The translations under genes were made by a program, and so were the position numbers. Positions 15,373-59,083 of a stretch of 64,000 nt of DNA are shown piece after piece. A model generated the notes under the pieces. That model saw nothing but the letters and a program-made list of their open reading frames with translations. It was not told the origin of the DNA and did no database searches. The DNA lies in assembly GCA_907163375.1 (NCBI GenBank), contig CAJQUW010016142.1, positions 186,001 through 250,000 on the forward strand, given 5' to 3'. This stretch comes from Prostheceraeus crozeri (Eukaryota > Platyhelminthes > Polycladida > Euryleptidae). Numbering within the stretch: position 1 is the first letter of the stretch; every line of letters begins with the position of its first letter.

Positions 15373-16723
15373 ATCAGATGAACGTAAGGAATATAACACA
15401 CATGCTCACTGGTAGCAATGTTGCGCCAAGGCTATTCATTCTTATGATACTCAGTATGGCGACTTCCAGTGGCTGGCAAATTAGGGCTGTGCATAGCCCC
15501 ACCGGTGCACCGGGTATGATAGCCGCATTTCATGCAATTCGCGCAATTCTGTGTTTCACTTGTTGATGCCAAATTTCGATTGCAATATTCTAACTGATTT
15601 TGAAATATTTTGATTTTGCACTATTTTTCTAAGTTTCACGAAATCGAAAAAGTGATGCCAAGATCAGTTACGATCTTCCACAGTGGTTCATAATTATGAA
15701 ATAGTTTTGATGATGCGCCTTCTCGAGATACGAGTGTCCTATTTAGCATTTTCAAACTTAGTATTTCATGTTACAAAAAGTTCTGACATTTTGTCTCACC
15801 GATGACTGCGTGGTTTCAAAGTGCTGGGAGATTTTTTTAGGGAAGACAGGTCGCAGAGTATAAGTGTGTTGCTAAAATGCGACTCAAAAGACTGAAAATC
15901 AATTAACTCCTTCACATAAACGTGCAAGTAATTATTCGGAAACACAGAAATTTTTCATTTTTCTACTTCCGATATGAAATGCGATTCCAATTCAAATTTG
16001 CGGACAGCCATCAGATTTATAGGAGTGTTGCTCTGTTCACATTTTCATGCATATTCAACAACAGATATCACATTTCCTATTGCATATAAAGTCCACTAGC
16101 AGTTTTATGTTGACCAAATTCGGAAGTGTGTTGTCATATGACTGCATCCTGAACCAGGAAGCAGCGAGAAACCATGGCATATGTCGAGTGATTGAGTATA
16201 CAAATTGATTCCACCAACGCCAAACACTACGGAAACATTTGTGGACAATTTGTCTTGAAATTTGTCCGTTTCAATCTTTATTCTAATATTATGGAATTGT
16301 GAAAGTGTTGAAGTTTGATAGATTGTAAGTTTTACATTCAAATGACCTCCAAGTTGGCAATATGTCATCTAGATGACGTAAACAGGTCTATATTTGGACA
16401 GTGGGTTACTGTGATGAATGTTTTAATTTAAACCAAATGAACTCTTGATTCGTGATTCCATCTTCTTGGAACTTTTCTTCAATTGAAGATTTTCCCTATT
16501 CCCACAATGATCGGTCAAACAAGCAGTTTGATCATCCGGTGATAAACCGAAGATAAATAAAAAGTAGGCCTGTAGCGTTCTCGGCTTATCAGTTCCGGTT
16601 CTTGTGTAGGTTTGGATCCTTTATCAGGGAGAATTCAGTCGCATATTGATTTAGCAGCTCCGGTATGTAATAAGTGCCACATTTCGACAAACTTAGATAA
16701 AATTGTATTCATAGAATCGTCAT
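15373..16723. other. No gene recognised
   Basis: AT-rich, with open frames no longer than 87 codons (16105-16368, reverse strand) and no domain or splice context. Confidence 0.5.
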
Positions 16724-17176
16724 AGAATCGTATTCAGAATCACTTCTACTCGTATATTTGATAGAATTCATTCCCAGGGAAAATCTTAGTGTAGAGGGAT
16801 TCTATGGCGCATGTCTATGGCCCTACTTTATAGTTAATAATCTTGCATACTTCAGTTACGGATAGAGGATAGCTACACAATTCACTAGGACATAGCTCGT
16901 GAAATTATTTGATAAATCCCTCGGACTAAAGTCCTCGGGATTCATCAAGCAATTTCCCTCTCTATATAATGGGTAGATGATGGCTATGTGATTCTCTGAG
17001 ATATAGAGAGGGAAATTGTTTGATGAATCCCGAGGACTTCAGCCCGAGGGATATATCAAATAATTTCACGACCTAGTAGGACCATGGATATGAGCGATGG
17101 AATCCCTCTCTACTAGCTACTCTCCACTTTGGGAGTGAATTCTATCAATTATAGAAGGGATTCTGAATACGATTCT
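16724..17176. mobile_element. Fold-back (long inverted repeat) element
   Basis: The left arm (16724-16967) and right arm (17001-17176) are inverted copies around a loop of about 33 bp. Matching landmarks in mirrored order are AGAATCGTATTCAGAATC, GATAGAATTCA, AGAGGGATTC, GTGAAATTATTTGAT, AGTCCTCGGGATTCATCAA and CAATTTCCCTCTCTATAT. The left arm carries roughly 50 bp (about 16832-16886) absent from the right. There is no coding capacity. Confidence 0.8.
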
Positions 17177-17341
17177 ACAACTATGTAATAATCCGGTATA
17201 CGTCATATCCAAGAAAATTGCATAGTCATCCTCTATCCATTACATAATCACTTAATTTGTCTGCTTGATATCAGAGCATGCACTAATGTAAATCATTTAG
17301 TATTATTAAACATTGTCACATTTCTATACGACAAATATAGG

Positions 17342-17440
17342 AATAGTATCCACTTTTAGGGGACATAAATGCATAGATTCCGAGGACACGTTAGTGTCCG
17401 AGGAATTTTGCATTTATGTCCGATAAAAGTGGATATTATT
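17342..17440. repeat. Left-end hairpin of Crypton-like element A
   Basis: Near-perfect 99-bp palindrome: AATAGTATCCACTTTTA at the left against TAAAAGTGGATATTATT at the right, CATAAATGCAT against GCATTTATG, and a centre built from GAGGACACGTTAGTGTCC. It contains the element's subterminal 12-mer in both orientations (17361-17372, 17410-17421). Confidence 0.8.
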
Positions 17441-17898
17441 GGTATTCTAACCCAAAAAAAATTAAATCTATATCAATGCTTTCTATCAATGCTTCATAGT
17501 ACTGATAGTGCTTCATAAATTACTCATACTCATACTCATAGTACATAACTCCTAGATATGTGTACATTATTTTTCTAAATCTTAGTTTGCGCCTAGACAT
17601 CCATAAAGGGATCCTTGACATCCATGTTTATTTAATAAGAAGTCCATGGGTCATTTCATAGTCTTTGAATGATAGCCTCAAGAAGTCTATGACTACAGTT
17701 CCTAGATCTGACAATATTGCAAAGGTTGACTACCTTCAAAATTCAAAAAATCCATGGATGATAGTTTTGTAAACCGTAGCTTGATCACTTTTCTCGAATC
17801 GCTCATACAAGAAGCACGCACGGTAGACAGCAGACTTAACTATACTCAATTTATCAAAAATCAAAGGCAATCAAATCAGTGGTTTAAGCTCAGAAAAC

Positions 17899-19333
17899 TT
17901 GAATTTTCTTGAAATTCTAACAAACGATGACACTAATAATTATGTGTATGATCAGTTTACGGGCTTAACAGATTCGCAGACTGCGGAGATAATTAAGTCG
18001 ACAGCAGATTTTGACGACACTTCTTATCCCGATCTGAGTGATGAAATTATGAGGGAAATTGCAAAAACAGAGGAGGGTGTGAAAAACAAGCGCACAAGTG
18101 ACCAGACGAAGCAGTACGTTAGCAAGTTTAAATCATTTCTTCGTGATGAAAAGCTACCAACAAGCATTGAAGAAATGCCAGTGAAATATCTGTCACAATA
18201 CCTTCGCTTTTGGTACAGTAAATTGTCCCGACAAGACGGGAATTTCTACAGCCCATCTACGCTAATATGTATGCGGGCGGGAATTCACCGTTACTTGAGC
18301 GCAGACATAGGACGACAGGTCAATATTTTGAAAGACGTTGAATTTAATCAAGCAAATAACATGGTAAAAAGTATGATTGCCAAATATCTTAAGTCGACGA
18401 AAACGATCAACAATCAAAACAGTGCGCGAGCAATTGATTCAACTGATTTGTTGAAGCTTGGCGACTATTTTTCAAGAAAAAATCCTCAAGTTTTGCAATA
18501 CGAGGTAATTTTTCTTATCATTTACCACTTTGCCTACCGAGGAAGAGAGTGGATGAGGAATCTCCAAAAGGAATTCTCTTGTCTTCTCAGTGGATAGCGA
18601 CAATCGTGAATTCATTGTGTGTAATAAAACTCTTGAAGAAAAAAATGTGAGATCAACACTCAATAAAAGGAATTACGAGACTATTAAAGACATCGTGATG
18701 TATGCAAAACCAGAGAAGAAAGATGAATGTCCTGTTGAAGCCATCCGACTATATTTGAGCAAGATCCCCAATAATTGCACATGCTTATTCCCGAAGCCGC
18801 TGCAGAAATCAAAAATGGAGAGTGGCGGTTGGGAGAGTAATGCTACATGGTACTCGGATACACAAGTCGTGGGGAAGCATTTGTTGAATGATGCAATGAA
18901 AATCATTTCAAGGGAAGCAAACCTAAACGCAATTTACACCAATCACTGTGTGCGTGCAACAGTCGTTTCGGAGATGTTCTCAAAAGGGTACACAACGGAC
19001 CAGATTCAAACGGTTACTGGTCATAAAAGGAATGATTCGGTGCAGCTCTATATTAAACGTGTAACACCAACAAAGAAAATGAAGGTATCACATGATTTAA
19101 GCAGCAGTATTCACCGATCCGAAACCCAACAAAGGGATATTTGTATTGAGGACAACAGTGGATCGACATCATCCCAGGTTTTTTCAACTCATTATTCTGT
19201 TTCTGAAACAAAGACAACTGTATCAACTATCAAGCGAGTCTGGAACTGTTCGGCGCACGACCTCAATTCTGAGAAAGAATGGGTTTGTGCCAGAATTTTA
19301 TTTGGATTAGAATGGACAGCACTTGTAATATGA
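17899..19333 (+). pseudogene. Crypton-type tyrosine recombinase (DUF3504/KIAA1958-like), frameshifted
   Basis: This would encode a tyrosine recombinase that cuts and rejoins DNA through a covalent phosphotyrosine. Two overlapping frames are needed: 17899-18597 carries the N-terminal SAM-like, DNA-binding part (LSQYLRFWYSKL) and the first catalytic Arg in AYRGREW; about 18590-19333 carries the rest. The second frame shows NHCVRAT (the H-x-x-R pair), VTGHKRNDSV and the nucleophile Tyr in LYIKR. The two frames overlap by a few bases near 18590, so a single small indel explains the break. The joined product is about 475 residues, typical of Crypton recombinases. Apart from the break it is fairly intact, suggesting modest age. 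Confidence 0.8.
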
Positions 19334-19443
19334 GTAATTTCTATGTTTGCACAGTTTGCTTATGTTCTATGTTCTTTCAGATTTTTTGGCATAGTTTTCT
19401 GCCGGACAATAATGCGGTTTTTAATTCAATGCAAATTCATATA

Positions 19444-19493
19444 TCAATCAGCGGACAATAATGCCAACTACGGCATTAGTGTCCACTGATTGA
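19444..19493. repeat. Right-end hairpin of Crypton-like element A
   Basis: A nearly perfect stem pairs TCAATCAGCGGACAATAATG with its complement across a short AACTAC loop. Both arms contain the 12-bp subterminal motif (19453-19464 and 19473-19484). A third copy lies just before it, at 19404-19415. Confidence 0.85.
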
Positions 19494-19536
19494 TGTAGAA
19501 ATCGACAGGAATTTCATCATTTTTGGGTTAGAATAC

Positions 19537-33565: not shown

Positions 33566-33688
33566 GTAATAATATATAGATACAGCCCTGTAGATGAGGG
33601 TGATAATGCAATACAGCCCGAGGGCAGCGCAGCTGCCCAAGGGCTTGCATTATCGCCCGATGTCTACGGGCTGTATCGATATTATTAC
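33566..33688. repeat. Left-end hairpin of Crypton-like element B
   Basis: A long palindrome: GTAATAATAT..GATACAGCCC at the left against GGGCTGTATC..ATATTATTAC at the right, with GATAATGCA against TGCATTATC and a GC-rich centre GGGCAGCGCAGCTGCCC. It corresponds in position to the hairpin of element A although the sequence differs. Confidence 0.8.
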
Positions 33689-33915
33689 CCTCACTGCCAT
33701 ATTGCCCGCAAAAGTCCGTTCTATTTCAATGGACTGCCATATTGCCCGCCAGAATCTGCAATATTGCCCGCTAGATATCATGGCTATTATATGGTATTAT
33801 TAAATTTCTATACCTCACACGTCCATGGTAATTTGAATTCATTCCATTAAATAAGTAAGTACATAGAAGGTAGACGAGAAAGAGAAGAAAGAACAGTTGT
33901 TAATAACGACTTAGA

Positions 33916-35138
33916 ATGCTCCATATCAATAACTTTGAACAAAGTATGATTTCTGGTGCTAGTACAGAAGAGTTACAATTTCTTCAAGATTTGTCCCCAT
34001 TTATTGACCAACAGGATCAATGGAATCAATGGACAGGCCTGAAGAAAGATGATACCAACTTTTTGGACAGTCTATTAACAGATGTTGACTTGGATTTAGA
34101 TGTCAAAATTCCAGAATTTCATGATCTAGACGAAATCACAGTCCAATCGCTTGATGAAATGGAAAAGGACGAAGTTCCGAAATCGACTTCTTCTCAGACA
34201 CTGTTACTCAACTAAATTCAAAGACTATATGAATTCAAAAGGACTTCCAAATACCATCGAAAACATGCCGTTGCGTTATCTTAGTCAGTATCTCAGATTA
34301 TTCTATTCATCGTTAAAGAAAGATGACAACACTTACTATGCTCCAGCCACTCTTCGTTGCATACGAGCAGCTATCAATCGATACCTTACATCAGCCCCGT
34401 GAAATCGACAAATAAATATCATGACAGACAGAGAATTCAAGCCTGCCAACAATATGCTGTCTACAATGGCTAGCAAGTATCTCAAAATCTCCGGCGTCAT
34501 GCAATGATAACAGCTACAAATCATTACCAAAAAAGATCTAGAAGCACTTGGAACATATTTTGACAGATCAAACGCTAAAAAATTCAAGAGGAAGTGTTTT
34601 CAATATTCTTTATCACAAGGGGTATCGTGGGAGAGAATGGATAAGAACGTTAAAAATTTCAAATCTCAAAATTCACACGGACGAGTGCGGAATAGAATAT
34701 GCGGATTTAGAAATACCAGCTTTCTCCAAAAATACAAAGGGCTCGGTTGTTGAAAAAAGCTATTCCAATAACAAGCAAAGCCTCATTTATTCAACACCTC
34801 AACAGAAAAAACGTTGTCCAGTAGAAGCAATCAAATTTTATTTCTCAAAAATCCCTCCCAACGTTGAAGTATTATTTCCTCTCGAAAAGAAACATTTCAA
34901 CTATTCCGACAAATATTGGTACTATCCCAAACAAGTATTGGGTAAGAATACTCTTGGTAGTATGATGAAAACTATTTCCACCAACGCAAACTTATCAAGA
35001 CTTTATACCAATCATTGTGTGAGAGCAACATGCGTCACCCAATTGGCAAATAAAGGATTTTCAATATCCGAAATTCAAGCAGTAACTGGTCATAAAAGAC
35101 AAGACAGTGTTCAGAGGTATATCAAACAAATTGAGTAA
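33916..35138 (+). pseudogene. Crypton-type tyrosine recombinase, decayed
   Basis: Related to the recombinase of element A but clearly another family. Three frames are needed: 33916-34215 (acidic N-terminus), 34151-34402 (RYLSQYLRLFYSSLKKDD, IRAAINRYL) and 34548-35138, with stops between about 34400 and 34550. The last frame has GYRGREWIR (first catalytic Arg), NHCVRAT (H-x-x-R), VTGHKRQDSV and the nucleophile Tyr in RYIKQ. Catalytic residues survive but the frame does not, so it is non-functional. It lies in sense orientation inside the large intron. Confidence 0.8.
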
Positions 35139-36856
35139 AGCAAAAAGCAAGAAATGTCAAACGCCTTGTCTGAAAGTATGTCAATACAAGAACATGAACC
35201 TCAATATTGTGAACAGTCAAAGAGAAATGTTAATATGGTCAAAACGGAACAATCAACGGAACGCATTTTTAGTAACTGTCTGTTTTCTAGTTGCACCATT
35301 AACATTAATAACTGATACAGTGTCATTGTGTAACTTCTTTGAGCGTTATACTCTAATGTTAATATTTACTGAACAGGAATTATGACGGACGTGTCCGAAT
35401 ATTCATGATCCCTTGTCCAGTCGTACATGTATTTTAATCTGATGAATTACAAATTATAAAGCCTGTAATGACTTTTATCTGCAATATTGCCCGATAAATC
35501 ATAGATATCATGTCACAGGGTGGGTAATAATATGCATTGCATATGACTTTTAAGCTTGCAATAGTAATAAATATAGCATTTACGAAAATCGTAAACGTTA
35601 AATTTAAAGGAAGAACATCTAACTTATGAAGGTGCATGTGGTGAGTTTTCATAACGTTACATGATATTTTAAATCAGGCGTATTTGAATCAGCAAAATCT
35701 TCTATCAATCACTACCGGACGAGTATGCGACCAATATATTACATCGTTAGTTCCAGGTCTTTTTTAGTCAACAGTAAAATGAAGTCCGGGGCACAGTGAT
35801 CAGCACCGGTCCCCCACCACCAAAACCCAGTCTAGTATTAAGGACATCGTGAGACTTCCAACTTGATGAGCCGCAGACTGTTAAATTCAGTCGATAAGAG
35901 AAATAGTAGATATTTTGTCCAAATAAGTCCGCTTACTCTGAGTAAAATACATTTTGACCCGCCACAAGAAAAGCAGTTGACAAATCAAAGATTAAAGAAA
36001 AATTATTAATGGGACATCTTCAATTTTTCAGTTGAAGCCACCAGTCTTTTCAGAATATAATGATATGTGTGGTGTCTCACTCAGTCTGATGTTTCAGACG
36101 TGCATATTGAAGAAGAATCTATTACAATATAGATAACAAAAAATCAAAAAATAAGATAGAAAGTTTATTAAACAATCATTGTAAAGCGTTTTCAGGAGAA
36201 TGACGACCCCTGTGAAGCTAAATACCTGTGGCAACGAATATCCATCGCCTTTTTTTCGGGGCAATACAGCAAGTGTTCTTCAGAAGAGTGTCATTTTTAT
36301 TGTTATTTTTTTGCGAGAATTTTTTATTTTCAGGACTCCAGTTTGCACTTTAGCATCTGCGCATGCGATTTACAGATTTTTGATACAAATGAAATCTTTA
36401 AAGTTTTTCACACATCATAATTTTTCATGTAACTTCTACACCACTCTCATCAAAACCAGTGGTGATATCAAATTTCCTTTCTAAACAATTGCATGAAGTA
36501 AACAATTCTCACTCCACAAATGCGATTAACTATCTGGAGATGCACGTTGATGCTAACTTGTGCTAGATAAGTCACAAATCGAATATTTTTTCCATCAGTG
36601 AACTGTTCACTTTAGAGCAGGCTTTCTTGAAACCGCAGAGATGTTCAAGCCAGCAAGGGAGATCAATCCACATTTGCGCACCCTCGTAGCATAAATAGAA
36701 TGCATTGAAATATCAGTTTCTTTATTAAAGCATCGTAATACAATAAAATTTTAAGTTCGCAGTGATATCCCAATAGATTTCTACAAAATTCAATCTAAAT
36801 GTTCGGAAAAATTTCGAGGGTCCAATAATTGAAAATCTGCTCAAGGTGAAAACTTG

Positions 36857-38100: not shown

Positions 38101-38750
38101 TCAAATTAATTTACATTTGAAAAAAGCACCATCATGGTTAACTTGCTTATTCAAAGTGGGGTTGAGTTTTTTTATGTACATGGCTTCCAAAATATTTAGG
38201 TCATAAGTGTTGGGAGCTTGAGATAGAATTTTGAAATTGTCAACTTTACAGCTGCAACTGCAATTTAACCTATGGTCAGAAATGGCGGACATTTTTTCCC
38301 GATGTTCTTTTATTCTTAAGTTTAAGTGTCTTGTAGTTCTAGCTATGTAGGTAGTGCGAGGGTCCACCTCACAAGCGAATTGGTAAATGACATTAGACCT
38401 AAGAACTTTGGGAGTATGATCTTTGTTGGAGAAACCACTTTTTAGTTTATTGCATGTGAAAACCCAACGGATAGGAGATTCTTTATCTATTCTACGGAAT
38501 AGTGATTGTAGTTTCTTTTTAAAATAAACCGATTGAATGCCAAAAAATGGAATTTTGACAGTATGGAGGTATTTGGATTCATCTTTTTCTTTTGGAGCAC
38601 AGAATCTTTTGTCCAGATACTGTTTGACCACTTTTTATATAAAGTACAACGGATATCCGTTGTTTTGAAAAATTTTGGTCAATTTCCCTATTTCATCATG
38701 GAAAGTTAGATCGTTCCTATCATTGTTTTCACCTCCTTTAGCTTAATATT
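38101..38750 (-). pseudogene. Penelope-like element, 3' end with GIY-YIG endonuclease
   Basis: Penelope-like retroelements encode a reverse transcriptase fused to a GIY-YIG nuclease that nicks target DNA. The intact frame 38101-38631 ends with the nuclease part: VIYQFACEV, TTYIARTTRHL with R-x-KEHRE, and a distal LEAMYIKKLNPTLN. Before it is a linker with the usual VFTCNKLKS. The same frame continues upstream past one TAA stop (about 38634) into HDEIGKL and IFQNNGYP, the tail of the reverse transcriptase. The second half of the GIY-YIG signature reads YIA instead of YIG. It is 5'-truncated and inactive. Confidence 0.8.
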
Positions 38751-43043: not shown

Positions 43044-43649
43044 ATGGGTCATCTCCCCCCCACGTTTTCAAATTTATCTAAAATCCGTAGAAATGAATCA
43101 ATCATCACAAAACTTCAGAGACACGTATTTTAGTATATTTTCTACCCACATGCAAAAATTTAAATCAATCAAACAAGTGCTTTTTTGCAGTAGAGACGAT
43201 AACATGAGGTGTAGCGATGTCAGCAGCGTAATCTGACTTCACCTGACCTCATCGTCTGAACAAATATCACAACTTCTTTTCTCGACAACTCGTGAAGTGA
43301 TGATGACCAGCCCACATCCTCAACATCAACATTTGTAATTTGAAAAAGGTGTGGCGAGGTAGTTGTCGTGCGAAGATTTCAAATAGCAGTAGATGACACG
43401 AAGACGGAAAGAGAACAATGCACACACGAGTAACAATAATGCTTGGAACAGACAAAGTCAGATTACGCTGCTGACATCGCTACACTTCACGTTATCGTCT
43501 CTGCTGCGAAAAGTACTTGTCCGATTTATCTAAATTTTTTTCATGTGGGTAGAAAATATACTCAAATACGTGTCTCTGAAGTTTTGTGACGATTGATTCA
43601 TTTCTACAGATTTTAGACAAATTTGAAAACGTGGGGGGAGATAACCCAT
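43044..43649. mobile_element. Long inverted-repeat (fold-back) element (606 bp)
   Basis: Arms of roughly 190-200 bp (43044-43240 and about 43450-43649) are inverted copies at roughly 90% identity by eye. Mirrored words are CCCCCACGTTTTCAAATTT, GAAATGAATCAATC, AACTTCAGAGACACGTATTT, ATTTTCTACCCACATG, GAGACGATAAC and TGTCAGCAGCGTAATCTGAC. The loop is short and non-coding. The high arm identity suggests a young insertion or arm homogenisation. Confidence 0.9.
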
Positions 43650-55815: not shown

Positions 55816-55864
55816 CAGGGAACCCTAGTTATCGGCGCTCCGCTTGACCAGGAAGTGACATTCG
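55816..55864 (+). repeat. P-type element, left inverted repeat
   Basis: About 49 bp matching the complement of 59027-59076, with a single C/A difference (GCGCTCCGC against GCGCTACGC). Confidence 0.9.
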
Positions 55865-56095
55865 AAAAATCTCTATGTATCATTCCTACAAGTTGAGTCT
55901 TAGAAAATTCAGTATTACTGTTGATGCTTAACATTTTATTATTCACGGGATCACATTAATTATGTTCTTTTGACAACACTCGCATGACAATAATTATCAG
56001 AACATATTGGAATTTCACTATACCACTGCAATACCAATATACGCATAAACTTTACCAATGCGTGATCAAAGAAGAATTATGCAACATACCAAAAA

Positions 56096-58873
56096 CTAAG
56101 ATGAGTTCACTTGACTGACTGCAAATTTGCGACGCCTGTACGCCAACGAAGCGGATGATTGACTGTCACTCATTTCTGAGGCATAGTTTTTCAAGAATGT
56201 GTTATATGCATGAAAGAGTACTCTGAATGCTAGCTGCTTCAAGTCACAATCACAACCAATCTTGTTGAATGATCGTATTTCGTTGGATGATTCTAGCGTC
56301 ATTTTGCTCAAAATTGCTGTGACAGAACTTCTGTAGAACAGTTCTGACTGTAGCTCAGAGTCATCTCTGATTCTTGCAATTGTCTGATAAGCAGATGAAA
56401 CTAGAGAGACAACAAATGGTGATGGACGTTTCAAGCCTCCTCTGCTTCTTATGTTTATTAAGCGAAGATGAATTTCAGATTCCATAGCTAGGAACTCAGA
56501 GTGAATCAAAAATTCTTTACATGGATGACATTTCAAGCGTTTTCCCAATGATTGAGCGATGTATCCTCCTATGTAGAGAATCATGCTTTTGTCCCATGAT
56601 TCAGAAGATTCGCTCAATGGTAATGATATGATAGATTGAGAGAGCAAGTGCATGGAATCTTCTTCATCACTGAAGTGCTGCAAATCATTCAGTTTAAATC
56701 CGTAGAATTTTAGGAGAGTTGATACCCGAATTTTCTTTTCGGCTTGAAGAACCTGTCGGACAGAAACAAGAAAATTTCCACCGTGAAATTGGCGATATCT
56801 ACCGAATCTACGCTCTATCCAATCATTGACAATCAAGCCGGGAAATACTGTTGTGAAATTGCATTCTTCGATCAAGTATACAATCAGTTCGGTTAGAGTT
56901 TTGCAGCACTGTCTTACAGCTAAGAAAGTTGGCTTTGATAAACCTGGTAGTTTGGAACTTTCCCAGTTGTTGAAAAAATCTGCAAATTGTAGCAAAAGCT
57001 GAATTCTCTTGTCATTTTTCTGGATGGGATTCGCATCAGGAAGCCGCTTATGCTTGCCCTTGGAAGGTGATTTTATATTCCATATAGTCCATATTCTGTT
57101 GATCAGTTTTAAAAATCGAATGAATCCGGCTGATAAATCGTACAACTGTGCCGCAGCAATGGTTGACTCATCAAACACTGACGCTACCAGAGAAACATTT
57201 GTTTTTTCAAGACCGTGTGGCTCTAATACCCGATGATTAAGCTTATATGCGATTCTGGCAGAGAGTCCTGATTCCATTTCAACCAGTGTACGAACATCGG
57301 AAATGTCAGCTGTATGAGTCACTTCTGGATTTTCAAAGTCAGGAAATTCAAACACAATTTTGGTTGTCCAATTATTGTAAATATTTTTGAAGTTATGGAC
57401 TGGGTCAAATATCATAAACAATGGAGCTCCTGAAACTGGATTGATGATCTTGAAATTATTCTTATCAGGACAAAGTGACAAAACGAAGCTGCGATTCACT
57501 GGGCTATTATCCACTACGCAGGCAGTAGTAATCAACTCAGCTGCTTCCAGAAGACGTAGATTTCTCTTTTAGTAACAATTTATGCAAATCACATGTAGTC
57601 AGATTTGTGGTAGGAGCCAAACAAATGACGTCTTGGAAATTATTTCTCAATGATTTAACAAGAAATCCACAAACAGCCCGTGCAAGACCAGGCGTCGATC
57701 CAGTATCTCCATCGCCATATAATCTTCCACCACCAAATTCTACCTTTCTTTTTACGTGAATCTCATCAATGCATAAAATGACGTGTCTTTCTTCAAGCGA
57801 CATTTCAGTAACTTTTGTTTGTAAATATTGAATCATGGTATCATCGTTTGGCGAATCAGAAAAGGATGCTGTCAGTCTCTGTAGATGACGCTTACTCGGT
57901 AGAGTCAAGCAGTTTGTTCCACGCAAAAACTCATATGCACTTGCACTGTGATTATTTAAAAGGAACATCATTGACAGCATTTCGGGGGAATAATTTGGCC
58001 TATTTTTTGTCAACAATTTCAATTGCTCAGTAATAAAAGACATCTTTGTATAGTTCATTTCACATTCTTCCTCTTCAAATTGATCGATCAGTCTCTCACA
58101 GATCAAGATAACGTTTTCAAGTAATGTTTTCGAATATATTTCAGCGGTAGATAGATTTTTCAATAGAGTGAGCAAATTATCAATTTGTGAAAAAAGAGAA
58201 ATCTTTCCTGAAGGGCATATCTCTCTACCAAATGAGTGAAGTTTCGCATCATCGATAGTTGTAAAAAAATGGAGATCATCAGTGATGGTAAGGGATTTAA
58301 CAATTTTCGGTACATCGTGTTCAGTACGAATTACACAAAAAGATAAGGAAGATTTATTCCACACTTTATTGAAATGTTGTAGATGGTTTGGCGCTTCATA
58401 AGTCCTCAAATCTGAATAGGAATGTACAATGTCTTGAGACAAAAATTCGGCGTTCCTCCTTTCCATTTCCTCCAATGTTCTTTTACGTCGATTTTCCATT
58501 AAAGAGGCTGACGATCTTTTTCGTGGTACATTGCGAGACATGTAGGCTGGAGCATTTTTAAAGATGGAAGGAAATGCGGCTTTACTCAATCTTCTGTTGC
58601 ACAACGTTCGAGGTTCAGTTTTTCTCCAGTTGTTGGTATCACATGATGATTCTACAAAATCCTGTTCGTTGAAATGTTCAGAGCAGACTCTAAAGTTGTT
58701 GGCATTACTTCACAAAACTTGGAGGTCCATTTTTCCCACTTTCGAGGTATACATCTTATCCACATTTCTAACAGCTCTTCATCTGATGTTGGAAACTTGT
58801 GCAAAGTCATCTTTGGCGATGTTCCTGATTGATTTTTAGCACTACATTCTGGTACGCAACATTTATTTGGCAT
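56096..58873 (-). pseudogene. P-element/THAP9-like transposase, two frameshifts
   Basis: The product would bind the element ends through a THAP zinc finger and cut with an RNase H-fold core. Reading frames on the reverse strand: 58873-58652 begins MPNKCCVPEC and LHKFPTSDEE..WIRCIP; a one-base shift near 58710 leads to RVCSEHFNEQDF, completing the C2CH THAP finger; the frame then runs to 57537 with CIDEIHVKRK (first catalytic Asp) and a DGDTGSTPGLA stretch. A second shift near 57550-57600 leads into AAELITTACVVDNSPVN (second Asp) and the frame to 56096, with DWIERRFGRYRQ (likely catalytic Glu) and YIGGYIAQSL near the end. Total about 900 residues, as expected. Each break is a small indel and no plausible intron covers it; assembly error is possible. 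Confidence 0.85.
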
Positions 58874-59026
58874 GCCTGCAGTGCACTTTATCAGAAATGT
58901 CTGCTAAAATTTAATTTGTGACAGCTCTGAAAACGGACAACTTGTTCACTGCATTAATAGACATGAAATGATGAAAGTACATAGAAACTTGTAATTTTGT
59001 CAAGACTCAACTTGTAGGCGTGAAAT

Positions 59027-59075
59027 TTCAATGTCACTTCCTGGTCAAGCGTAGCGCCGATAACTAGGGTTCCCT
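59027..59075 (-). repeat. P-type element, right inverted repeat
   Basis: Complement of 55816-55864 with one mismatch; begins at the target duplication 59076-59083. Confidence 0.9.
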
Positions 59076-59083
59076 GGCCGCAT

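Follow-up and report, generated by a model that had tools for sequence, protein, structure and literature searches.

The left hairpin and the inverted pair of two Crypton-like elements, A and B, are parts of a single palindrome. The inverted pair, which the original prediction had taken for a separate motif next to the hairpin, is the severed foot of that hairpin, split from it by the crossover, and the right and left ends form one long palindrome when joined. The A right end keeps one foot strand (TTTTTGGGTTAGAAT), the complementary foot stays with the remainder of the hairpin at the left end, and the chromosome supplies a single AAT. It is judged about an even chance (probability roughly 0.5) that these Cryptons have a palindromic attachment site, split near its base by the crossover and used folded in one strand, in the manner of integron attC sites.

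Identity and boundaries of elements A and B

The window, i.e., the whole stretch of 64,000 nucleotides that was analysed, contains two multi-copy tyrosine-recombinase transposons whose frames give Crypton-like Pfam domain matches, in agreement with the original prediction. The recombinases of A and B are kin of DUF3504 and QRICH1 (Pfam) and share about 46% identity over the aligned part (BLAST). The Pfam matches of their frames are to recombinase domains only, with no DDE transposase or reverse transcriptase, and an element of about 2 kb has little space for the latter. Both window copies are decayed, the A recombinase being split in two frames and the B recombinase broken. The layout is kept between A and B despite their diverged sequence, as had been proposed. 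The parts are as follows:

17337..19534, + strand: Crypton element A, 2198 bp including the right AAT, with AAT also at 17334-17336; ends from the 21-copy alignment
17337..17445, + strand: A left hairpin, apex C(GTTA)G, GA/GA mismatches beside the apex on the + strand (self-BLAST, folding)
17442..17458, - strand: A inner foot copy, a perfect 17-bp match to the right end in reverse complement
17899..18597, + strand: A recombinase, N-terminal part, QRICH1-like domain that holds the first catalytic Arg
18590..19333, + strand: A recombinase, C-terminal part, HxxR...H...Y, in a different frame from the N-terminal part
19404..19497, + strand: A subterminal 12-mers GGACAATAATGC and a second, smaller hairpin (19440-19497)
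19520..19534, + strand: A right end with its foot strand; crossover at AAT 19532-19534
33574..35531, + strand: Crypton element B, 1958 bp including the right AAT, with AAT also at 33571-33573; ends from the 21-copy alignment
33574..33692, + strand: B left hairpin with inner foot copy, apex C(GCA)G (folding)
33696..33769, + strand: B array of three 12-mers (33696, 33736, 33758)
34548..35138, + strand: B recombinase, C-terminal part; the upstream part is broken
35520..35531, + strand: B right end, GTGGGTAATAAT; crossover at AAT 35529-35531

The limits first given, 17342-19536 and 33566-35533, enclosed real elements, but the ends shift by a few bases in the alignment of 21 copies each. These copies come from one genome (2.05 Gb, 14,165 contigs), in which the best 40 of 1,136 first-look candidates for A and the best 40 of 138 for B were scored; 20 further copies of each element were taken with flanks of 500-600 bp, so that each profile has 21 rows. 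The insertions of both elements are dispersed in the genome. Among the A matches listed, 28/41 main rows begin with the first or second query base and 32/41 end at 2191-2195, the remaining rows being partial or interrupted. Together with the 21-copy end alignments, these counts place the hairpin and the inverted pair inside the boundary in most copies, as predicted. The refuting condition of the original prediction, homology that stops inside the hairpin, does occur in a minority of A rows, which start inside or beyond it (e.g., query 53 and 89) and some of which are interrupted or truncated copies; single copies of two other families (L058, L066) likewise have no left arm.

In the profiles, the ends of A and B fall at a shared AAT. 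The left and right ends are AAT-ATAGGAATAG and GGGTTAGAAT in A, and AAT-ATATAGATAC and GGGTAATAAT in B. The end alignments thus put the anticipated crossover site at the AAT adjoining the inverted pair. The base before the left AAT is never G in the 21 rows of either element. The first base after the right AAT is A in 13/21 rows of A and in 12/21 rows of B; six bases further on, the right flank has T in 15/21 and 17/21 rows, respectively. One of the 21 A rows (L019) is mis-anchored at this end.

Empty sites, which the original prediction had suggested looking for, were searched among the fetched loci. Five copies with deviating ends (L012, L013, L022 and L024 of A; L054 of B) were left aside, and AL027, whose left end had been misjudged, was dropped from the 37 joined flanks. 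A paralogous unoccupied site spanning the joint was found for 9/36 usable flanks, the other 27 having no partner among the few loci compared. The partners are paralogous repeats, not allelic sites. Each of the nine flanks has at least one partner with a single AAT at the joint; in the partners of BL043 and BL051 two bases beside the AAT differ or are gapped, and some additional partners of BL045, BL048 and BL055 lack the AAT. The single AAT in these sites indicates that an insertion is AAT-element-AAT on one pre-existing AAT, which establishes the insertion point for both A and B. A fold-back repeat adjoins A at window positions 16723-17177, and its relatives host the B insertions L038 and L048 at TAATAAT.

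The window also contains Gypsy and P-element frames (Pfam), which suggest an animal genome. The P-element-like frames lie at 55816-59076 between 47-bp inverted repeats; the frame 56096-57535 has no Pfam match and the frame 57537-58604 has weak P-element matches. A frame at 38101-38631, amid several direct repeats, has a weak GIY-YIG match below the Pfam cut-off, and a long inverted repeat at 43044-43649 (91% over about 196 bp per arm) is unrelated to the Cryptons. Short repeats had hinted at a third Crypton at 45.7-47.7 kb, where tblastn gives no credible partner, and this candidate was rejected. The Rfam search gave nothing at the gathering threshold, and viral contigs and bacterial and archaeal genomes yielded no confirmed relative of the A/B recombinase.

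A palindrome split by the crossover

The left hairpins of both elements are real, as had been claimed. Self-BLAST gives the A left hairpin at 17342-17440 (82%) and the second A hairpin with 79%, and the coding strand folds with -34.7 kcal/mol in A and -44.5 kcal/mol in B. The perfect inverted pair of A is longer than first stated, 17 bp, with TTTTTGGGTTAGAATAC at 19520 and its reverse at 17442, and that of B is GGGTAATAATAT (12 bp). Both hairpin and pair sit inside the element. Taken in reverse complement, the right arm of the hairpin continues into the inverted pair, as GGGTTAGAATACC-AATAATATCC in A and GGGTAATAATATC-GATACAGCCC in B. The junctions of right end and left end, GGGTTAGAAT|ATAGGAATAGTATCC in A and GGGTAATAAT|ATATAGATACAGCCC in B, therefore are each one palindrome, whose left strand the crossover cuts near the base. 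Across families, the right end and the hairpin foot match in inverted orientation over 12-25 bp. By eye, the junction exceeds the inner foot copy by 2-5 bases in families A-G1, which leaves a small unpaired patch in the folded junction just inside the crossover. The joined form has two att-like sites in inverted order.

The junction palindrome is displayed directly on the chromosome by the tandem L087, in which two copies, 99.8% identical, lie head to tail. The palindrome spans 198 columns (bp) at their joint versus 144 at the single left end, with a perfect foot match of 25 bp. A search with the A junction pattern, allowing up to two mismatches, gave six matches in the genome and none for the backward control. 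Four of them (L081, L082, L085, L086) have the right end of an A-type relative ahead of a left end at the AAT; L083 and L084 have no right end there. The head-to-tail junctions seen are all chromosomal. The four matches to the B junction pattern, each with two mismatches, yield no clear junction, three being left ends of known copies and one uncertain.

Other arrangements of ends were noted in passing. The right end of B copy L050 abuts the left end of J, another A-type family, and in L066 a G1 right end abuts a G2 left end, so that both resemble small arrays. Recombinase pairs in opposite orientation lie close together at G000:C3276:17792-19613, C13617:7289-9212, C2481:2429-5522 and C1418:178264-179978, and are either real inverted dimers or assembly effects. 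A search for internally deleted A copies with the joined ends as query was set aside, its list being filled by single-end matches. A region of about 590 bp (G000:C9735:375800-376388), judged from positions only, is a candidate for a short non-autonomous element of the A type that has kept its two ends; an A left end comes immediately after it.

The 12-mers proposed near both ends of A and B do occur there, but only four of the sites named are exact (19404 and 19453 in A, 33758 and 35481 in B), the others having one or two mismatches and 33598 more. The consensus GCAWTATTGYCCG has nine sites with up to one mismatch in the window versus none in each of five first-order simulations; seven are close to the ends of A or B, one is deeper inside A (17708) and one outside both (354). 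The idea of a shared end motif is not supported as a general one: the core WTATYGNCCG was matched in A, in B and in the C hairpin, but not in D, E, F, G2, H or K, the six further families scanned.

Spread over recombinase families and marks of one strand

A Pfam DUF3504 search of the same genome, from which the best 150 of 3,484 first-look candidates were scored, returned many open frames of 300-500 aa. The loci compared comprised five pairs and 14 single loci, then two more groups and two left ends. The proteins fall into clusters A, B, C, D, E, F, G1, G2, H and I, with about 20-65% identity between clusters, and clusters K and M, with 29-30% identity to E. A left hairpin with a matching right end is found in 10/12 clusters (A, B, C, D, E, F, G1, G2, H, K), and the left hairpin is missing in I (L078) and M (L089, L090). 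The ends of G1 are less certain, because its copies have a G2-like context in common. The 14 single loci, several of which belong to clusters already seen, include nine complete layouts, two with the hairpin only, one with the end match only and two with neither; L058 and L066 are single copies without the left arm, which L057 and L065 have. An AT-rich core is common to the ends from C to K. In cluster M the ends are short inverted sequences (CATTGTTACACTC, seen clearly in L089 alone), i.e., a different end architecture in the same genome.

In an alignment of 14 proteins from the copies, Arg229 and Tyr396 are invariant, and the HxxR motif is replaced in some families. The best structural matches of the E recombinase model (14 sequences, mean pLDDT 75, pTM 0.55) are QRICH1, XerH and Cre, with the integron integrase 2a3v lower down; the sequence-profile matches are, in order, QRICH1, XerA and 2a3v. 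These matches support the enzyme class and not the substrate.

The hairpins differ between their two strands. Thirteen representatives were tallied, one for each of A-F, G1, G2, H, J, K, N and O, of which J, N and O are known from the left end only; the representatives of A and G2 are not those of an earlier comparison. Of the 22 two-by-two internal loops, 17 have GA/GA on the coding strand, and none has it on the other. G-T pairs number 20 on the coding strand and one on the other; ten hairpins favour the coding strand, none the other, and C, E and O are tied. The coding strand folds better in 11/13 hairpins and worse in C and O. On the coding strand, 11/13 apices read C(GNA)G or C(GNNA)G, the exceptions being K (TTTA) and O (GNA on the other strand). 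Such loops form extraordinarily stable DNA mini-hairpins, according to the available text of PMC4686876. The marks were first noticed on A-G1, and the six hairpins that came later (G2, H, J, K, N, O) agree with the apex mark in four cases and with GA/GA in five.

The stem also covaries. In the A-type set of seven sequences, 93.4% of the cells pair in a structure drawn from one of the seven, and 15/42 pairs change on both sides, a number reached in 0/500 shuffles and compared with at most 4 in slid controls.

Among the fetched loci 100 palindromes were collected, of which 52 match the family library. Most of the other 48 carry neither the GNA or GNNA apex nor GA/GA, which discards the marks as a trait of any palindrome. 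Ten of the 48, some of them related, have such an apex, and four of these also have GA/GA, in all four on the apex strand. The G-T balance is less specific. In 11 non-library palindromes hand-picked as marked, G-T pairs stand at 15 to 6, and 18 unmarked ones are imbalanced too (e.g., 5:0, 4:0, 4:1), in no fixed direction. Consequently only the fixed direction of the G-T pairs counts as evidence, and the odds of the single-strand reading are slightly lowered. Solo palindromes outside the library with a GNA or GNNA apex were seen at L052:194-245, L052:457-574, L058:162-259, L061:291-404 and L062:650-767, several with GA/GA on the apex strand. They are possibly minimal passengers or ends of further families.

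Proposed mechanism, alternatives and known systems

The recombinase would excise the element as a circle, whose closure would rebuild one large hairpin from both ends, marked on one strand. At the junction the coding strand would fold into the hairpin, held by the GNA mini-loops and the tandem G-A mismatches. The recombinase would then act on the folded strand, with the foot and the next stem segment as its two arms, and exchange one strand with a double-stranded AAT-type target. Replication would resolve the product of this single-strand exchange. A broader proposal is tentative and falls somewhat short of an even chance: that animal Cryptons move via a folded coding strand, in a circle or a replication gap, attC-like, into double-stranded AAT, with the marked solo hairpins as minimal passengers. 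Counting against the folded strand are the hairpin-less clusters I and M, the apex exceptions K and O, the worse folding of the coding strand in C and O, and L058 and L066. So does the modelled recombinase fold, for which QRICH1, XerH and Cre are closer matches than the integron integrase.

Ordinary integration of a double-stranded circle is a serious, if rather doubtful, alternative. It takes the site as two-armed around AAT and the palindrome as extra recombinase-binding sites or regulation. By eye, B has inverted arms ACAGGGYKGTA flanking an AAT-containing spacer, the 12-mers recur near both ends of A and B, and the modelled fold resembles Cre and XerH, enzymes of duplex DNA. On the other hand, duplex integration predicts neither the one-strand marks (GA/GA 17 to 0, G-T 20 to 1, GNA apex) nor the compensatory stem changes. 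The yeast 2-micron circle carries an inverted pair of sites, and the palindrome might similarly serve replication or amplification of the circle, as an inverted site pair or a hairpin origin, and not strand exchange. The inverted att-like sites of the joined form, the head-to-head or tail-to-tail copy pairs and the one head-to-tail tandem agree with such a role, which is very unlikely given that inversion between the two sites would merely flip a palindrome and that the split is always at the foot adjoining the crossover. Slightly less probable again is a hairpin that acts as RNA, e.g., in the 5' leader of the recombinase transcript. The marked strand is the coding one and the marks precede the frame, and G-U and tandem G-A pairs are compatible with RNA as well. 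A leader hairpin, however, has no need of a foot common to the far end of the element, and the apices differ from the GNRA loops usual in RNA hairpins; GNA and GTTA/GTCA belong to the stable DNA set in the available text of PMC4686876.

The folded-strand reading can be set beside several known systems. The tyrosine-recombinase retrotransposons DIRS and Ngaro regain their full repeat only in circular form and encode a reverse transcriptase, unlike A and B, whose frames have no such domain. The CTX phage attP hairpin is a folded single strand used by tyrosine recombinases, as proposed for the Crypton site; unlike the Cryptons, it belongs to a phage genome, depends on the host XerC/XerD and has the fixed target dif. 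In a linear integron cassette, one end holds most of the hairpin and the opposite end its foot, a layout that the Crypton ends share. According to the available text of PMC2727003, attC is, like the Crypton site, an imperfect hairpin with two arm segments, an unpaired spacer, strand-distinguishing mismatches and a variable tip. The Cryptons differ from integrons in having no platform with attI, a recombinase inside each element, dispersed targets and no attC box consensus. They are therefore not integrons, and the likeness, known from sequence, is one of anatomy and strand marks. The strand-biased circularising elements of Vibrio (PMC9345347, available text) are bacterial tyrosine-recombinase elements that form their circle from one strand, and the word hairpin is absent from that main text as available.

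Published animal Cryptons (CryptonA and CryptonI; PMC3212892) resemble A and B, as far as the available text goes, in their single tyrosine-recombinase gene with DUF3504/QRICH1 relatives. They likewise have no reverse transcriptase and a short direct repeat at the insertion, which is AAT in A and B. In that text Kojima and Jurka (2011) found no terminal repeats in animal Cryptons, an observation and not a mechanism, and the words hairpin and palindrome are absent from it. In contrast, the ends described here are complementary parts of one palindrome. No earlier account of the split-palindrome layout was found in a search at the level of titles and abstracts, and an earlier description is possible in Repbase or the subscription papers, most of which lay outside its scope.

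With no terminal repeats reported, the way in which the ends of animal Cryptons are recognised has so far been unclear. The split palindrome provides a rule by which Crypton ends can be searched for, and a mechanism that can be tested. Should the single-strand reading be true, a process seen in bacteria and their phages, hairpin recombination by tyrosine recombinases, would reach a eukaryotic transposon. The finding may also bear on the Crypton-derived genes QRICH1, ZMYM and KCTD1.
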